This document shows, piece by piece, positions 12,650 to 53,197 of a stretch of 64,000 nucleotides of DNA. The translations under genes were made by a program, and so were the position numbers. Source of the DNA: Dissulfuribacter thermophilus (lineage in GTDB: Bacteria > Desulfobacterota > Dissulfuribacteria > Dissulfuribacterales > Dissulfuribacteraceae); NCBI RefSeq assembly GCF_001687335.1, contig NZ_MAGO01000010.1:1-64000 (forward strand). Reading direction: 5' to 3'. Each line of letters starts with the position of its first letter. The stretch's first letter is position 1. The notes beneath the pieces were generated by a model. The model saw only the letters and a list, made by a program, of their open reading frames with translations. It ran no database searches and was not told the origin of the DNA.

Positions 12650-12745
12650 AAAGTTTTGAGTGTTGAGTGTTGAGTTTTGAGTTGAAGGAAAAGAGCTTTA
12701 AAAGTTTTGAGTTTTGAGTTTTAAGTGTTGAGTTGAAGGAAGAAA
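12650..12745. repeat. Family B tandem repeat (GTTTTGAG/GTGTTGAG units), copy 1
   Basis: Two arrays of 8-bp units GTTTTGAG or GTGTTGAG, each ending in TTGAAGGAA and separated by a short AAGAGCTTTAAA-like linker. Similar arrays stand at 25345-25400, 46141-46222, 50574-50690, 51062-51160 and, inverted, 51739-51815. Units are not identical and there are no unique spacers, so this is not CRISPR. Confidence 0.8.
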
Positions 12746-12783
12746 ACTTTGATTCTTGAACTTTTTTTTGACAACTTCGCTCT

Positions 12784-25344: not shown

Positions 25345-25400
25345 AAAAGTGTTGAGTGTTGAGCATTTCAGAAGTGTTGAGTTTTGAGTTTTGAGTTGAA
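25345..25400. repeat. Family B tandem repeat, copy 2
   Basis: GTGTTGAGTGTTGAG, a spacer GCATTTCAGAA, then GTGTTGAGTTTTGAGTTTTG and AGTTGAAG. Same unit as at 12650. Confidence 0.75.
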
Positions 25401-46140: not shown

Positions 46141-46222
46141 AAAGTTTTGAGTGTTGAGTTTTGAGTTTTGAGTTGAAGGAACAATCCATTATTAGTTTTG
46201 AGTGTTGAGTTTTGAGTTGAAG
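46141..46222. repeat. Family B tandem repeat, copy 3
   Basis: GTTTTGAGTGTTGAGTTTTG, AGTTTTGAGTTGAAGGAA and, after a 20-bp linker, GTTTTGAGTGTTGAG, TTTTGAGTTGAAG. The second array overlaps the start of the U32 peptidase frame. Confidence 0.8.
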
Positions 46223-48256
46223 AAAGAAAAACTTGGTAGATGTGAAATTCTTGCCCCTGCCGGCACCAAAGAGGCCTTTTGTGCCGCAATAGAGGCAGGA
46301 GCAGACGCAGTGTACGTGGGTCTCAAGGCCTTCAATGCAAGGGCCTTTGCCCAAAATTTCTCCCTAGAAGAGCTAAACGCCCTTCGGGCTCTTTCAAGCC
46401 AAAGGGGTGTAAAACTCTTTGTCACCTTGAATTCCATCATAAAAGAAAATGAGTTAGGTAATCTCATCGATACCCTGGCCGCCCTCGAACACATAGGGAT
46501 TGATGCAATCATCATCCAGGATCTTGGCACTTGGCGGATTGCAAAGAAATTCTTCCCAAAACTCCGCATGCACGCAAGCACCCTCATGACCATACACAAC
46601 TGTCTGGGTGTTAAAACGGCCCATAAAATGGGATTCAAAAGGGTGGTCCTTGCAAGGGAGATGACTATTGAAGAGATAAGGGAATGCTCAAAGGCTGCTC
46701 CCATAGAGCTTGAGTGTTTCATATTTGGCGCCATGTGTTTTACCTACTCAGGCCTGTGTCTCTTTAGCAGCCTCTTTGGAGGCAAGGCCAGCACCCGTGG
46801 AAGGTGCGTACAGCCCTGCAGAAGGATATATAAGAGCCGGGGTTCTAAGAGCGGTGCCTATTTTTCAATGCTAGACCTAAACGCCCTCGAGCTTTTACAC
46901 GACTTAAAAGAGGCTGGAATCTCTTCTTTTAAAATCGAGGGAAGATTGAGGCCAGCCCACTACGTATACCATGCAGTAAAGGCAGCAAGAATAATCCTGG
47001 ATTCAAAACCTGGAGACTCAAAGGCCTTGGAAGAGGCCATGAGAGTGGCAGACAGCGCACTTGGAAGGAGTTCTTCTACGGGCTTCTTCTTATACGACAG
47101 GGCTTCTTCCCCTCCTGTTCGCCCTGAGCTGGCGCCAAACACAGGAAAGTTTATAGGAAAGATAAAGAACATAAATAAAGACAGTTTCTTATTGGAATCC
47201 AACTTCGAGATCTTGTCTGGAGACAGGCTCAGATTCCTGTCAAAAGATCGGACCAAACAGGCCATTATCAAGGCAAAAGACATAAAAAAGATCAATACCA
47301 GCCTCTGGGAGATCAGCGGTGCCCTTAGTAAAGAATTTGCAGGAGGCCTTTGTTTTCTAACCGACAGAAAAAAAAGTCCTTTCAAGAAAATAGACATCCG
47401 GCCTCTTCCCATCGACTATAAAAGGCCCAAAAACAAGGCTGCAAGGGTCAAAAAACAACTGGCTCAAACTCCTGCCAAACCCACTAAGTTCAAAGAGCCC
47501 AATATATGGGTGAGAGTTCGTAGTCTCAAGGACCTTGGCGCCCTATCCTCCTTTAAAGACATAAAGGGTTTTTATCTTCCAGTCTCTCTAGTCAAACATC
47601 ATAAAAAAGTACCCAACTTCTCCATTCCCATTACCTGGTATCTGCCCCCTGTTATCCTAGAAAAAGATGTTCCATGGTACAAAGAGGCCTTGCAAAGGCT
47701 GAAAAAGGCAGGTTTTCGTGGATTTCAGGTCTCAAACCTGGGAGCCCTTTCCCTATTTACAGACCTAAAGGGGGTAAAAATCAGTGCCTCCTACCATGTA
47801 AACTGCCTAAATTCGTTTTCAGTTGAGGCCTTAAACGATCTTGGACTAACCGGAGTTGAATTTTCAGTAGAGACAGATAAGGCAAATCTCGAGGCTGTTT
47901 TAAAGAAACAGCTTCCCATCCCTATAGATATCGTCATCTACGGCCATCTTCCCGTGTTCACAACCAGGCTCTCCAAACACCCATGGCTAAAGGCAACAGA
48001 TGTGATCGAGAGCCCAAAAGGGGAGGAATTTCTCTGGGAACAAAGATCCGATGTAGGTTTCCTCCTGTTTAAGCTACCATTTAGTTTGATCAATAAACTG
48101 GGTTATCTCAAAAGACTACCTGTGAGAAGGTGGGTAATAGACCTATCCTTTGGTACTCCAGCATGGGTCATCAGAAAGAAAGGCGGAGGAAAGAGTATCT
48201 TAAGGGGGATCAGGGGGCCACACAAGGGCTTCAATCTCGACACCGAACTACTCTAA
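46202..48256 (+). CDS. U32-family peptidase
   Basis: 684-aa protein of the U32 (collagenase-like, YegQ/RlhA) family; several members act in RNA modification rather than proteolysis. Seen: CEILAPAGTKEAFCAAIEAGADAVYVGLKAFNAR at the N-terminus and the signature ELECFIFGAMCFTYSGLCLFSS..GGKASTRGRCVQPCRRIY at about residues 163-203, with the Cys ligands expected for an Fe-S cluster. A second, more distant domain ends with the C-terminal 200 residues. The coordinate start is GTG 46202, which lies in a family B repeat; TTG 46217 (KKEKLGRCEIL) would give the more usual N-terminus. Neither has a good SD. Confidence 0.87.
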   Translation: MLSFELKKEKLGRCEILAPAGTKEAFCAAIEAGADAVYVGLKAFNARAFAQNFSLEELNALRALSSQRGVKLFVTLNSIIKENELGNLIDTLAALEHIGIDAIIIQDLGTWRIAKKFFPKLRMHASTLMTIHNCLGVKTAHKMGFKRVVLAREMTIEEIRECSKAAPIELECFIFGAMCFTYSGLCLFSSLFGGKASTRGRCVQPCRRIYKSRGSKSGAYFSMLDLNALELLHDLKEAGISSFKIEGRLRPAHYVYHAVKAARIILDSKPGDSKALEEAMRVADSALGRSSSTGFFLYDRASSPPVRPELAPNTGKFIGKIKNINKDSFLLESNFEILSGDRLRFLSKDRTKQAIIKAKDIKKINTSLWEISGALSKEFAGGLCFLTDRKKSPFKKIDIRPLPIDYKRPKNKAARVKKQLAQTPAKPTKFKEPNIWVRVRSLKDLGALSSFKDIKGFYLPVSLVKHHKKVPNFSIPITWYLPPVILEKDVPWYKEALQRLKKAGFRGFQVSNLGALSLFTDLKGVKISASYHVNCLNSFSVEALNDLGLTGVEFSVETDKANLEAVLKKQLPIPIDIVIYGHLPVFTTRLSKHPWLKATDVIESPKGEEFLWEQRSDVGFLLFKLPFSLINKLGYLKRLPVRRWVIDLSFGTPAWVIRKKGGGKSILRGIRGPHKGFNLDTELL

Positions 48257-48716: not shown

Positions 48717-48722
48717 ACTACC
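48665..48722. repeat. Family A degenerate left-end copy A5
   Basis: CGAATTTCCCCAAGATACGA, GGCGCTAGGGATGAAGACATACT aligns with the left half of A1 (GCAAGTTTGCCGAAGATGCG and following). Reverse frames give similar peptides: APRILGKFVNCRI here, LPRIFGKLASCII in A1 and PPRIFGKLASCII in A2. Confidence 0.6.
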
Positions 48723-50694
48723 TAAATCCTGGATAGCCATTTTTTGCACTCGTTAAGTGGCTGTTTCTGAATGCGCTTTTTTCTATACACTGGTAATTGC
48801 CATGCCTTTGGGCAATTGCCTTTTCTTTCAATTCCCTGACTCGCATCCAAAAGGCCCTTTGGTATTCAATTGGAGCACGACTCAGTTTTTGTTCAAAGGA
48901 CGTAGGTATCCACCAATCTGAGTAAAAATTTATACTCAATAGATAAATGACGTGATCATCCCAGTAGGTTGGAGCAGGGTTCCAGAGTCCCATGGCCTGT
49001 GGGCCAAAAATCACTGGACTCGTAAGAGAGTCTTTAGGGAAATATAGCAAATAACAAAATGCCCCTTGGTAAAGGCTCATCCAAGAATCGTAAAAATTGA
49101 TTACAGGGATGTAGATACCCTTTGAGATCTCATCCCTTGCAATATAGATTTCGTAGTTTTTTCCAGAATCCTTTGAATCAGGGCTAAAAAATCCATTTGG
49201 AGTTGTCTGTCCCATCCAGGGGGCGAATACGTCTTGAGGTTCAACAATGTATAGATCGAGATCAGCTCCAGATGGGTTGCCAAATACATCTGTCCAGTAG
49301 GCCTGTATGACAAACCCACCTTTGGCAGTCTGGGGACTGATACCTTCGGTTTCATGTAAAAAGGCCTCCACAAAATCATTCCACTGACTGAGTCCCAGCT
49401 CCAATGAGATTTGTGCGTACTGGGCCCTCTCTTCACTAAGGAGATCTCCTGGAAGAGGTATATTTATGGCTATTCCCCTGGAACCTTCCACACTTTCAGC
49501 GCCAACCCCTGTACCAAATGAATAAGCTGAGCTATAGTGACGTTCTTTTACGATTACTTGTTCTCTTAGCCAGTCAGACAGTTCATTTGCCTCTTTGAAG
49601 CTAACCCCGTTCAATCTGAGTTTTTCTATGAAATCAATGCAATCACATGCTCCTGGCATTGCAGGAAAGCTCTGAGCCCTAGTCCTTGCCTCATAAATGG
49701 CATCGATGTAGTTCGCCATATTTTTCTTCAAGGCCCCTCCAAAACGATCAACCAGCACCAATAGTTGAGCTACTCCTTCGGTTCGCACAAGACTCTTTGT
49801 TACACTCGCGAGATTATTTGGGGGTCTGGAGTAATAATCCACAAAAGCATCTACGATAAGCCTTCCAAGGGCCTCTCCTCCCATTTCAGGATCGTGAACC
49901 AAGGCATAGAATATCACGTCGTAGGGGTTACCATCTCCTGGCTCTGTATTTTCAGAAAATGTTATGTAGTCGGCAAACTCATATACATAACCCAAGACCT
50001 CGATCTGCCCCATGAGGCATGCGTCAAATTCCAAGAGATCAAAATGAATTCCAGCCTCCTCAAGCGCTCTCCTCAACTCCTCCAATGACATAAAGCTATG
50101 GGAACCATCGTCTTGCAAAATTCCACGACCATTTCTGCTACCTTCAAAACCACCTAGCCACCCCAGTCCATGATCCCATAGGATCAGGGCATATCTTTGT
50201 GCAGGAAATGCGGACACCCCCCATCTAATGAACTCGGTGAGGGTAGCTGGGTCTGCCATGTCCTGATTTCGTTCCATAGGGTATAGCTGGACGTCATGAT
50301 TTAACACTTTAAACCTGTATGTGACGTTGTCTGAGATTTCAGGGGTATATATGGAGCTCACATCCGCCTGGACCAAGATGTTCACCTGGTCTGTGGAGCC
50401 CACTTCCAACATTTCAAGGACGTCGTCTACACAGGCTGCAGACAGATTATTCTGCCCAGCCATGTAAACCAACACAGTCCACGAGGCATCCTTTGCAAAG
50501 ACGCTAGTGGAAAAGAGACTGAAACAGGAAAACAAAACTATTACAAAGCCCAGCAAGCAGCGGGAGCAATAGAAGTTTTGGGTTTTGAGTTTTGAGTTTT
50601 GAGTTGAAGGAAAAGAGCTTTGGAAGTGTTGAGTTTTGAGTTTTGAGTTGAAGGAAAAAAACTTTAGAAGTGTTGAGTTTTGAGTTCGATTCAC
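48718..50694 (-). CDS. Clostripain-like (C11) cysteine peptidase
   Basis: 658-aa peptidase of the C11 family. The catalytic His is in ALILWDHGLGWLGGF and the Cys in FDLLEFDACLMGQIEVL, the usual pair; WTVLVYMAGQNNLSAACVDDVLEM opens the domain. Residues about 44-68 form a signal peptide ending SVFAKD, so it acts outside the cytoplasm. Residues 2-41 are encoded by two family B repeat arrays (RTQNSTL, NSKLKTQ, TQNSKLKTQN), which separate the GTG start from the signal peptide. The start overlaps the TAG stop of the GT2 gene. A TTG near residue 48 could be the real start but has no SD. C-terminal repeats of unknown fold extend the protein. Confidence 0.85.
   Translation of the reverse strand: MNRTQNSTLLKFFSFNSKLKTQHFQSSFPSTQNSKLKTQNFYCSRCLLGFVIVLFSCFSLFSTSVFAKDASWTVLVYMAGQNNLSAACVDDVLEMLEVGSTDQVNILVQADVSSIYTPEISDNVTYRFKVLNHDVQLYPMERNQDMADPATLTEFIRWGVSAFPAQRYALILWDHGLGWLGGFEGSRNGRGILQDDGSHSFMSLEELRRALEEAGIHFDLLEFDACLMGQIEVLGYVYEFADYITFSENTEPGDGNPYDVIFYALVHDPEMGGEALGRLIVDAFVDYYSRPPNNLASVTKSLVRTEGVAQLLVLVDRFGGALKKNMANYIDAIYEARTRAQSFPAMPGACDCIDFIEKLRLNGVSFKEANELSDWLREQVIVKERHYSSAYSFGTGVGAESVEGSRGIAINIPLPGDLLSEERAQYAQISLELGLSQWNDFVEAFLHETEGISPQTAKGGFVIQAYWTDVFGNPSGADLDLYIVEPQDVFAPWMGQTTPNGFFSPDSKDSGKNYEIYIARDEISKGIYIPVINFYDSWMSLYQGAFCYLLYFPKDSLTSPVIFGPQAMGLWNPAPTYWDDHVIYLLSINFYSDWWIPTSFEQKLSRAPIEYQRAFWMRVRELKEKAIAQRHGNYQCIEKSAFRNSHLTSAKNGYPGFR
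50574..50690. repeat. Family B tandem repeat, copy 4 (coding N-terminus of C11 protease)
   Basis: Two arrays of GTTTTGAG/GTGTTGAG units, each ending in TTGAAGGAAAA, plus a partial third. On the minus strand they read as Asn-Ser-Lys-Leu-Lys-Thr-Gln repeats. Confidence 0.8.
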
Positions 50695-51683
50695 TACTTG
50701 AGGCCTCTTACAAAAGACATCACAAAAAATCTCAATATTCCCCCTAAAAATGCCGTCGCCGTCCCAATCTTCATGACAGAAGTATCGTACTTGGCGTACA
50801 ATAAAAAAGCACTTCTGTGAAAGTGGTACATGGAAAAAAGGGGCCTCTTTGTACTAGAACCACCGACCTCATGCACCACATCCCCTAGACTCGGGACATA
50901 TACGACCCTCCACCCACTGTTTCTAAACCTTTTACACCAGTCGCAGTCTTCCCAGTAAATAAAAAAACGCTCATCCATTGGCCCGACCTCTTTAATGGCC
51001 TGGCTCCTTATGAGCATACATGCCCCAGATACCCAATCGACTATCACAGGTTCCTTATTTGGAAGTGTTGAGTTTTGAGTTTTGAGTTTTGAGTTGAAGG
51101 AATGGAGCTTTGGAAGTTTTGAATTTTGAGTTTTGAGTTTTGAGTTGAAGGAATGGAACTCTTGAGGATCAAGTATTACATCTTTCTTCACAAAACGACT
51201 TCTGGGAAAGAGTTTTGTAAGGGGGCCAGTCCTCCCAAAAAAGGCTGTAATGAGCCTGGGGTCCCATCTAGCAGAGCCCTGAAGCGCACCGTTTTCATCT
51301 AGAATGCGTGGACCTATTACTGCCACATCAGGATATCGATCAAAAATAGAGGCTGCGTCCTTTAAAAAGGGATTCTTTACATATGCGTCTGGATTTAGAA
51401 GCATTAAGAACTCTGAACTTGAATGGCTTATCCCCAAATTGACTGCCTTGGAAAAACCAAGGTTTTCTTGCTGGGGCAAGAAGTGAATTTTAGAGTGAGC
51501 CCTTGCCTCTTGTGGCAAACGCTCCATAAGGGCGGATATTGACTGCGAATCTGCTTCATTATCTATGACAAAGATATTCTTGATTAGATTTTGCTCATGC
51601 CTTAGTAGGGACTCTAGCGCCCTATAGAGACTTTCATAGGCCTTATAGTTTACAATTATTACATCGAAGCCAGCAGTGTCCAA
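50694..51683 (-). CDS. GT2 glycosyltransferase with in-frame repeat insertion
   Basis: Rhamnosyltransferase-like GT2 protein, 329 aa, cytosolic with a C-terminal hydrophobic helix. DVIIVNYKAYESLYRALESLL, ENLGFSKAVNLGISHSSSEFLMLLNPDAYV (DxD-type site) and GACMLIRSQAIKEVGPMDERFFIYWEDCDWCKRF (acceptor-side acidic motif) are all present. Residues about 175-208 (NSKLKTQNSKL..NSKLKTQNSTLPN) are family B repeat DNA at 51062-51160, inserted in frame between the two halves of the GT-A domain without a stop. Start is TTG 51683 with GAGGTG upstream. The effect on activity is unknown. Confidence 0.85.
   Translation of the reverse strand: MDTAGFDVIIVNYKAYESLYRALESLLRHEQNLIKNIFVIDNEADSQSISALMERLPQEARAHSKIHFLPQQENLGFSKAVNLGISHSSSEFLMLLNPDAYVKNPFLKDAASIFDRYPDVAVIGPRILDENGALQGSARWDPRLITAFFGRTGPLTKLFPRSRFVKKDVILDPQEFHSFNSKLKTQNSKLPKLHSFNSKLKTQNSTLPNKEPVIVDWVSGACMLIRSQAIKEVGPMDERFFIYWEDCDWCKRFRNSGWRVVYVPSLGDVVHEVGGSSTKRPLFSMYHFHRSAFLLYAKYDTSVMKIGTATAFLGGILRFFVMSFVRGLK
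51062..51160. repeat. Family B tandem repeat, copy 5 (inside the GT2 gene)
   Basis: Two arrays of GTGTTGAG/GTTTTGAG units, each ending TTGAAGGAATGGA, in the middle of a coding sequence. The net insert keeps the reading frame. The peptide on the minus strand is NSKLKTQNSKLP and NSKLKTQNSTLP. Confidence 0.85.
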
Positions 51684-51738
51684 GGACTCACCTCAGATTT
51701 CCGTCAACGTCGTATAAAAAGGCCATATTTTTCCTTCA

Positions 51739-51815
51739 ACTCAACACTCAAAACTCAACACTTCCAAAGCTCCATTCCTTCAACTCAAAACTCAACACTC
51801 AAAACTCAACACTTC
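51739..51815. repeat. Family B tandem repeat, copy 6 (opposite orientation)
   Basis: CTCAACACTCAAAACTCAAC arrays separated by CTTCCAAAGCTCCATTCCTT, inverted with respect to the copies at 50574 and 51062. They fill the space between the GT2 start and the stop codon of the NtrC-type regulator. Confidence 0.8.
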
Positions 51816-53197
51816 TATACCCCCCATCTTTTCAACTTTAGTCTCAGGGTCTTTCTATCGATCCCAAGTAACTGAGCTGCCATGGTCTTGTTGCCTCCCA
51901 CAGACTCGAGGACCTTTACCACGTAACGGCGCTCTAGTTCATCCAGCGATACAACTCCCTTCAAGAGGTCATCTTCCATATGAACAGGCTTTTCTTTTCC
52001 GCCAATCTTTGTCTGACGCCCCATGGGTAAACCAGAGAGCTCTATGTCGTCCACTGAAATCTCTCCAGAGGTTGTGAATATCACCAGGCGTTCCACATAA
52101 TTTTCAAGTTCCCTGACATTCCCAGGCCAATGATAGCCCTTGAGTATATCCAGGGCATCCTTGGCGATGGTGAGTCCGGGTCTTCCGTGTTTGAGGGAAA
52201 AACGTTTCAAAAAATAGTCTACCAACAAGGGAATGTCCTCTTTCCTATCCCTGAGAGGAGGTGTCTTGAAGGCCACCACGTTCAATCTAAAGAACAGATC
52301 CTCTCTAAAGCGCCCTTCCTCCACTGCCTGCCTCAGATCTTTGTTGGTAGCGGCAATAATACGCACATCTACCTTTGTAATCCTATGGCTACCAACCCTT
52401 GTGATCTCCTTTTCCTCTACGACCTTTAAGAGTTTTGCCTGGAGATCAAGGTTTATGTTTGCGATCTCGTCTAAAAAAACCGTCCCTCCATTGGCCAATT
52501 CAAATTTTCCAAGTTTATTCTCTGTAGCCCCTGTAAAGGCCCCTTTCACATGACCAAAGAGTTCGCTTTCAAACAGAGATGGAACAAGGGTTGAACAGTC
52601 TACCGAAATAAAGGGCGCATCTTTTCTAGGGCTCTGCTCGTGGATATACCTTGCCAAAAGCCCCTTACCAGTTCCACTCTCCCCAGTTATGAGCACAGTG
52701 CTGTCTGTTTGGGCCACACGTCTGGCTCGTGCCAGAAGATCCAGTAGGGCATTGCTATCACCTACAATCCTCACCTCACCCTCTTTTTTCCGCAGTTCCT
52801 CACGTAGATACAGGTTTTCAAGGGCGAGCATCTTTGTTTTCAGTGTCCTCTGAACCACCATTAATAGCTCTTCTGGATCAAAGGGCTTGGGCAGAAAATC
52901 GTTTGCACCCAGCCGCATGGCCTCCACTGCATTCTGGATGGTTCCGTATGCAGTGATCATGACAATGGGGATCAGGGTGTCCCTTTGCCTAATATTGGAG
53001 ATCAGGTCGAGTCCGTTTATATCCGGCATCTTGAGGTCCACCAATACAATGTCAAAATCCGACTCATCCAAGAGCTTAAGCGCCTCTTTACCGGTCTCTG
53101 CCTCCATGCACTCATAACCACGTCTACGCAACACCTGAGCGCACCCGTCCCTAATGGCAGGATCATCGTCAACAATAAGGATTCTCTGTGCTGGCAT
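51815..53197 (-). CDS. NtrC-type sigma54-dependent response regulator
   Basis: 460-aa two-component activator. REC domain: ILIVDDDPAIRDG, phospho-acceptor Asp in FDIVLVDLKMPDINGL (about residue 54), Lys in FLPKPF. AAA+ domain: GESGTGKGLLA, GAFTGATENKLGKFE, VFLDEIANINLD, DVRIIAATN. C-terminal Fis-type HTH NKTMAAQLLGIDRKTLRLKLKRWG. The Walker A last residue is Gly, where Glu is more common. Four bp after the PAS kinase gene, its likely cognate partner. Targets unknown. Confidence 0.92.
   Translation of the reverse strand: MPAQRILIVDDDPAIRDGCAQVLRRRGYECMEAETGKEALKLLDESDFDIVLVDLKMPDINGLDLISNIRQRDTLIPIVMITAYGTIQNAVEAMRLGANDFLPKPFDPEELLMVVQRTLKTKMLALENLYLREELRKKEGEVRIVGDSNALLDLLARARRVAQTDSTVLITGESGTGKGLLARYIHEQSPRKDAPFISVDCSTLVPSLFESELFGHVKGAFTGATENKLGKFELANGGTVFLDEIANINLDLQAKLLKVVEEKEITRVGSHRITKVDVRIIAATNKDLRQAVEEGRFREDLFFRLNVVAFKTPPLRDRKEDIPLLVDYFLKRFSLKHGRPGLTIAKDALDILKGYHWPGNVRELENYVERLVIFTTSGEISVDDIELSGLPMGRQTKIGGKEKPVHMEDDLLKGVVSLDELERRYVVKVLESVGGNKTMAAQLLGIDRKTLRLKLKRWGV

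Follow-up and report, generated by a model that had tools for sequence, protein, structure and literature searches.

Repeats that lie in frame within protein-coding genes have been described in Rickettsia. The Rickettsia palindromic elements (RPE; Ogata et al.) are about 150 bp long, palindromic, and located in frame in unrelated genes; as recounted in a passage of PMC10969869, they occur 44 times in R. conorii. Heptameric repeats have been reported from other bacteria. The cyanobacterial STRR/trnL P6b heptanucleotide repeats comprise Class I (TDNGATT) and Class II (NNTGAGT) forms, and arrays of one class have been replaced as a block by arrays of another (PMC4476775). In marine Beggiatoaceae, direct repeats of the heptamer TAACTGA form 169 sets in one genome, most of them intergenic (PMC4679880). 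G-rich heptamers of the form GGGAATC are dispersed genome-wide in Xanthomonas and Nostoc and are under-represented in coding regions (PMC4692102). Among longer simple repeats, heptanucleotides are the most abundant class in many bacteria, and slippage has been proposed (Mrazek et al. 2007, as cited in a passage of PMC4679880).

The stretch of Dissulfuribacter thermophilus DNA analyzed here (the window; 64,000 nucleotides, positions 1 to 64,000 of NZ_MAGO01000010.1) contains a GT2 glycosyltransferase gene in which the original prediction had placed an in-frame insert of repeat DNA. The gene, the insert and the neighboring genes are as follows.

50694..51683, minus strand: GT2 glycosyltransferase gene, host of the insert (329 aa, TTG start; assigned by Pfam and fold match, with TIGR01556 below its cut-off)
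51057..51158, minus strand: in-frame insert coding EFHSFNSKLKTQNSKLPKLHSFNSKLKTQNSTLP (102 bp, 34 aa; edges good to a few bases only)
51058..51108, minus strand: repeat unit nearer the GT2 3' end (from TRF and copy comparison)
51109..51159, minus strand: repeat unit nearer the GT2 5' end (from TRF and copy comparison)
51815..53197, minus strand: sigma-54-type response regulator gene, adjoining GT2, with conserved synteny
48718..50694, minus strand: clostripain-family (Peptidase_C11) gene, downstream of GT2

The frame was found to be open throughout 50694-51683 on the minus strand, as predicted. Within it, TRF detected a 51-bp unit present 2.0 times at 51058-51157 with 95% matches. The two units are 94% alike, with 47 of 51 bases identical in codon register, and are composed of CAAAACT and CAACACT heptamers. 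The predicted position (51062-51160) and length (about 34 residues) of the insert were correct to a few bases, and the extra length amounts to 33 or 34 aa, depending on the choice of ancestral length.

The host protein was matched by Pfam PF00535 (E 3.7e-16) and PF13641 over residues 6-267. The TIGR01556 rhamnosyltransferase model scored 70.9 bits, below its cut-off of 200.55, and by Pfam and NCBIfam the protein belongs to GT2, close to the rhamnosyltransferases although below their cut-off. Two motifs, N97-P98-D99 and W244-E245-D246, are invariant. An AlphaFold2 model built on 54 sequences has a mean pLDDT of 87, a pTM of 0.87 and a confident GT-A core, and Foldseek matched it to GT-A enzymes in the PDB (E 3e-14). 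Domain, fold, and the NPD/DxD-like and ED motifs all identify the host as a GT2 protein of GT-A fold.

The insert follows the NPD motif and precedes the half containing DWVSGAC...YWEDCDW, and lies between the donor-binding and catalytic halves. In the model, residues 191-195 and 197-206 have pLDDT values below 50, a result that fits a surface loop, for which structure prediction had been suggested as a check. The insert is probably a floppy surface loop, as judged from the model, although it is perhaps not wholly disordered, because AlphaFold draws residues 173-187 as a helix. No inverted repeats were found at the insert, and its folding z-score of -0.69 is nothing unusual; a palindromic element was rejected on these grounds.

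The 80 closest GT2 homologues, drawn from named genome records, were compared with the host protein. The span from R151 to W217, between the FGR and VDW motifs, measures 31-34 aa in these relatives versus 67 aa here. The original prediction had named homologues with the same residues and no DNA repeat as evidence against an insert; extra residues at this site occurred in 0 of the 80 relatives and in 0 of 19 same-order orthologues. The remainder of the enzyme is well conserved, with 54 of 56 columns that are 95% conserved in the other homologues kept by this protein. The empty site is seen only in relatives at 57% identity or less, too distant for the reading of a target duplication such as a MITE or transposon would leave; inverted repeats, the other such feature, are absent at the insert.

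In the two nearest genomes, both halves of the GT2 protein match one contiguous orthologue. The relatives keep the order histidine kinase, response regulator, GT2, and in several a clostripain gene also adjoins GT2. A chimera of two GT2 genes, or a false join, was therefore rejected, since the halves share a contiguous orthologue with the same neighbors. The clostripain ORF as listed begins in repeat-coded residues (window 50570-50694). Translation may instead start at a TTG close to the signal peptide, in which case the repeat reaches up to the start of the gene.

As had been claimed, similar DNA is found between genes, at 50570-50686, 51728-51814, 12651-12758, 25373-25397 and 46142-46228. 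The copies that lie closest to the insert, together with the sequence that links one of them to it, are listed below.

51091..51115, minus strand: 25-bp unit junction TTCCAAAGCTCCATTCCTTCAACTC, exact elsewhere in the 2.5-Mb genome only at 51762-51786
51728..51814, plus strand: inverted intergenic element, nearest kin of the insert, between the response-regulator and GT2 genes with 44-bp spacing
50570..50686, minus strand: element between GT2 and the clostripain gene, oriented as the insert and overlapping the listed clostripain ORF in its N-terminal region

All other copies differ from the 25-bp junction at 2 or more bases. Because the exact junction is confined to these two sites, the insert and the inverted element 0.65 kb away are nearest kin. 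Local copying between them, in either direction, is likely, and is the simplest reading of this sequence identity.

The family as a whole is large. With at most 1 mismatch, TTCCTTCAACTCAA had 10 occurrences in the window, where shuffles predicted 0.06, and about 136 in the 2.5-Mb genome, where a reversed-pattern control gave 2. The genome-wide count used a pattern anchored on TTCCTTC, with its own reversed control; a reversed pure-heptamer pattern is no real control, since a reversed heptamer array is the array itself. The core 21-mer (1 mismatch) had 153 sites in this genome, and its tract was absent from 45 same-order genomes. Elements have the form 5'-TTCCTTC-(heptamers AACTCAA or AACACTC)n-ACTTCTAAA or similar-3' and are single or paired. 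Starts of paired units are mostly 51 or 44 bp apart, a difference of one heptamer (7 bp). TRF periods of 7 and 51 mark the family as a heptanucleotide tandem repeat. A 435-kb sample, selected for the presence of hits, contained 78 tracts of period 7, most of them AAAACTC, versus 13, 0 and 0 for periods 6, 8 and 9. Dispersal is STRR-like, in that most sampled elements lie outside long frames, the sample having been picked for hits and thus giving no rate. Intergenic copies are as intact as the GT2 insert.

Conserved sequence near TGACGAATTCGTTCGTCATGAAAGTTTGGG, part of it palindromic, follows several of the copies (window 12651-12758; L088, L089, L096, L087), and the heptamers may be carried by a larger composite repeat. 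In addition, facing pairs of elements about 35 bp apart were observed (L086:13222-13303, L098:3922-4010, L099:854-927 and L087:12921-12988); these could form large hairpins. Phage-borne spread was set aside, the exact 21-mer being present in only 19 of 2.9 million viral contigs.

The reading frames of the array differ sharply between its two strands. On the sense strand, a CAAAACT array encodes QNSKLKT (an NSKLKTQ cycle) in all three frames and is stop-free, whereas the antisense strand encodes SFEF-stop-VL and always meets TGA. Since 7 is not a multiple of 3, a single stop-free heptamer gives the same seven-residue peptide in any frame, and one orientation can always be read through a gene. 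All internal copies within genes are sense, and antisense copies occur at gene ends only, because the complement of the stop-free array hits a stop. Survival within genes would accordingly be limited to sense copies with lengths divisible by 3. An antisense copy at a gene end is found in isoleucyl-tRNA synthetase, where it closes the C-terminus (L090:4567-4614) and seems to supply the last residues of the enzyme.

A search of the genome for the repeat peptide identified three genes with copies inside conserved sequence, namely GT2 and two others.

Contig C9, 53688-54698 (L062:943-1953): MurB (UDP-N-acetylmuramate dehydrogenase), above the NCBIfam cut-off
Contig C3, 197476-198579 (L028:1311-2414): OppF-type ABC ATPase, with two copies, an internal one near the C-terminus and another forming the N-terminus

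In the case of MurB, which is normally essential for cell-wall synthesis, two repeat units lie in frame (C9:54246-54341) and add about 27-29 residues relative to the nearest relatives. These further cases, the inverted nearest kin of the insert, and the in-frame heptamers found across the phylum lay beyond the view of the original prediction.

Across the phylum, the exact 21-mer was present in 20 of 395 sampled genomes. Of the 26 loci read, most had it within a long ORF and in the sense frame, and about 5 were intergenic; these loci were picked from among the matches listed and give no rate. A protein search for NSKLKTQ repeats was not used for counts, as it returned many low-complexity matches without a DNA tract. 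Conserved enzymes carrying the tract included UDP-GlcNAc 2-epimerase, NeuB, dihydroorotase, an RNA uracil methyltransferase and a glycoside hydrolase of family 3, along with an RND pump, a Mur ligase, the PheRS beta chain and a UvrD-like helicase. Comparisons within genera gave varied results. The site was empty in the sisters for MurQ, and the tract was common to the sisters for TrmA. For PyrC, MurD and PheT, a different heptamer array occupied the same place in the sister species, and in the case of the UvrD-like gene the sister sequence likewise seems to be heptameric.

The PyrC (dihydroorotase) site, in family f59 (L395-L409), was readable in 12 species and displayed eight different consensus units. 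Only two tract lengths were seen, 55 and 76 bp, which differ by 21 bp, and heptamers with a TCA core occur in nearly all of the species. Between species, the flanks are 89% identical and the units 71%. This pattern fits array turnover that is held to three-unit steps by the reading frame. A single heptamer "dialect" for each species was rejected: samples from genomes G382, G400 and G115 were mixed, and only the present genome (G000) was dominated by one heptamer. A second heptamer, GGAATGC, encoding NAECGMR-like peptides, was observed in or before conserved genes beside a CAAAACT tract (L227, L228).

The position and frame of the tract, its absence in the relatives, the conserved remainder of the protein, the size of the family and the further in-gene copies are all direct observations. 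The insert is very probably specific to this lineage and copied, in frame, from a dispersed repeat built on heptamers. This supports the central claim of the original prediction, that a dispersed repeat added a peptide to an otherwise typical enzyme. It is unlikely that the tract is instead ancestral, or that slippage expanded a short motif which the GT2 gene already had. Such an origin would be in keeping with the heptamer tracts that dominate the long tandem repeats of several genomes in the phylum, and with the PyrC arrays, which indicate that a heptamer array can occupy one site for long. However, none of the 80 orthologues has extra residues at this site. Moreover, slippage alone is insufficient, because the non-heptamer parts of the insert (the TTCCTTC start and the ACTTCCAAAGCTCCA junction) are common to the dispersed family, one of them being exact with the copy 0.65 kb away. 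An assembly or sequencing artefact, in which repeat misassembly joined the tract in, might be suspected in a 27-contig draft with a repetitive family, but is very improbable: the tract is short and lies inside a 121-kb contig, the halves belong to one orthologue with conserved neighbors, the frame is exact, and like inserts are present in independent genomes.

Recruitment of the insert for a function, such as regulation of the glycosyltransferase or an interaction, is very unlikely. The in-gene units are intact and in frame, and a helix is modeled in part of the insert, which would favor such a role. However, the same peptide is found in unrelated enzymes (MurB and the OppF-type ATPase), its sequence is dictated by the DNA family, copies between genes are equally intact, and no relative has the insert.

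As a lineage-specific copy of the dispersed repeat, the insert would have arisen from a family amplified to about 136 units in this one genome, with entry into a surface loop of an already established GT2 gene and the addition of 2 x 51 = 102 bp. Local copying would link it with the inverted element 0.65 kb upstream, either of the two being the source. Its persistence may reflect the lack of any frameshift or stop and the tolerance of the loop for extra chain. The peptide itself would have no required role, and copy number would shift by slippage in 7-bp steps.

As a single case, GT2 is a modest, clean example. The more interesting lead, only partly tested, is the presence in housekeeping enzymes of heptamer arrays with species-specific units. 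It can be proposed, tentatively and with more doubt than confidence, that such arrays are widespread, fast-changing in-frame inserts in these enzymes, with a site keeping its array for long while units are replaced as a block in each species and lengths change in steps of three units (21 bp, 7 residues), and that the GT2 insert is a young founding example. If true, some replacement or homogenizing process would be at work on heptamer arrays. The PyrC comparison provides a dated series with which tandem-array homogenization inside genes could be studied. The in-gene copies also provide a natural test of the tolerance of enzymes, including the essential MurB, for ready-made loops.

A search of the open-licence literature for the repeat peptides gave no match, and the described systems each share some features with this family. 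As with the RPE, a short dispersed repeat lies in frame in unrelated protein genes (GT2, MurB and the OppF-type ATPase). Unlike the RPE, the insert is 102 bp and heptameric, without inverted repeats or unusual folding. The reverse complement of the cyanobacterial Class II unit, ACTCANN, fits the ACTCAAA found here, a resemblance of sequence rather than a demonstration of descent. Block replacement, as at the PyrC site, is likewise shared with the P6b arrays. Those arrays sit in the stem-loop of a self-splicing RNA (PMC4476775), whereas the arrays described here are translated inside enzymes and, in this genome, have fixed non-heptamer flanks. Like TAACTGA in Beggiatoaceae, the repeats are direct heptamers dispersed in one genome. 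TAACTGA encodes LITDN-stop in the forward direction and so can overlap gene ends only, whereas CAAAACT, with its stop-free sense strand, can be accommodated within genes. The GGGAATC heptamers are similarly spread genome-wide but form G-quadruplexes (PMC4692102), whereas the present family has a G-poor strand. In-frame repeats were thus known from Rickettsia, and heptamer repeats, mostly intergenic, from cyanobacteria and others; the present heptamer family unites the two properties.
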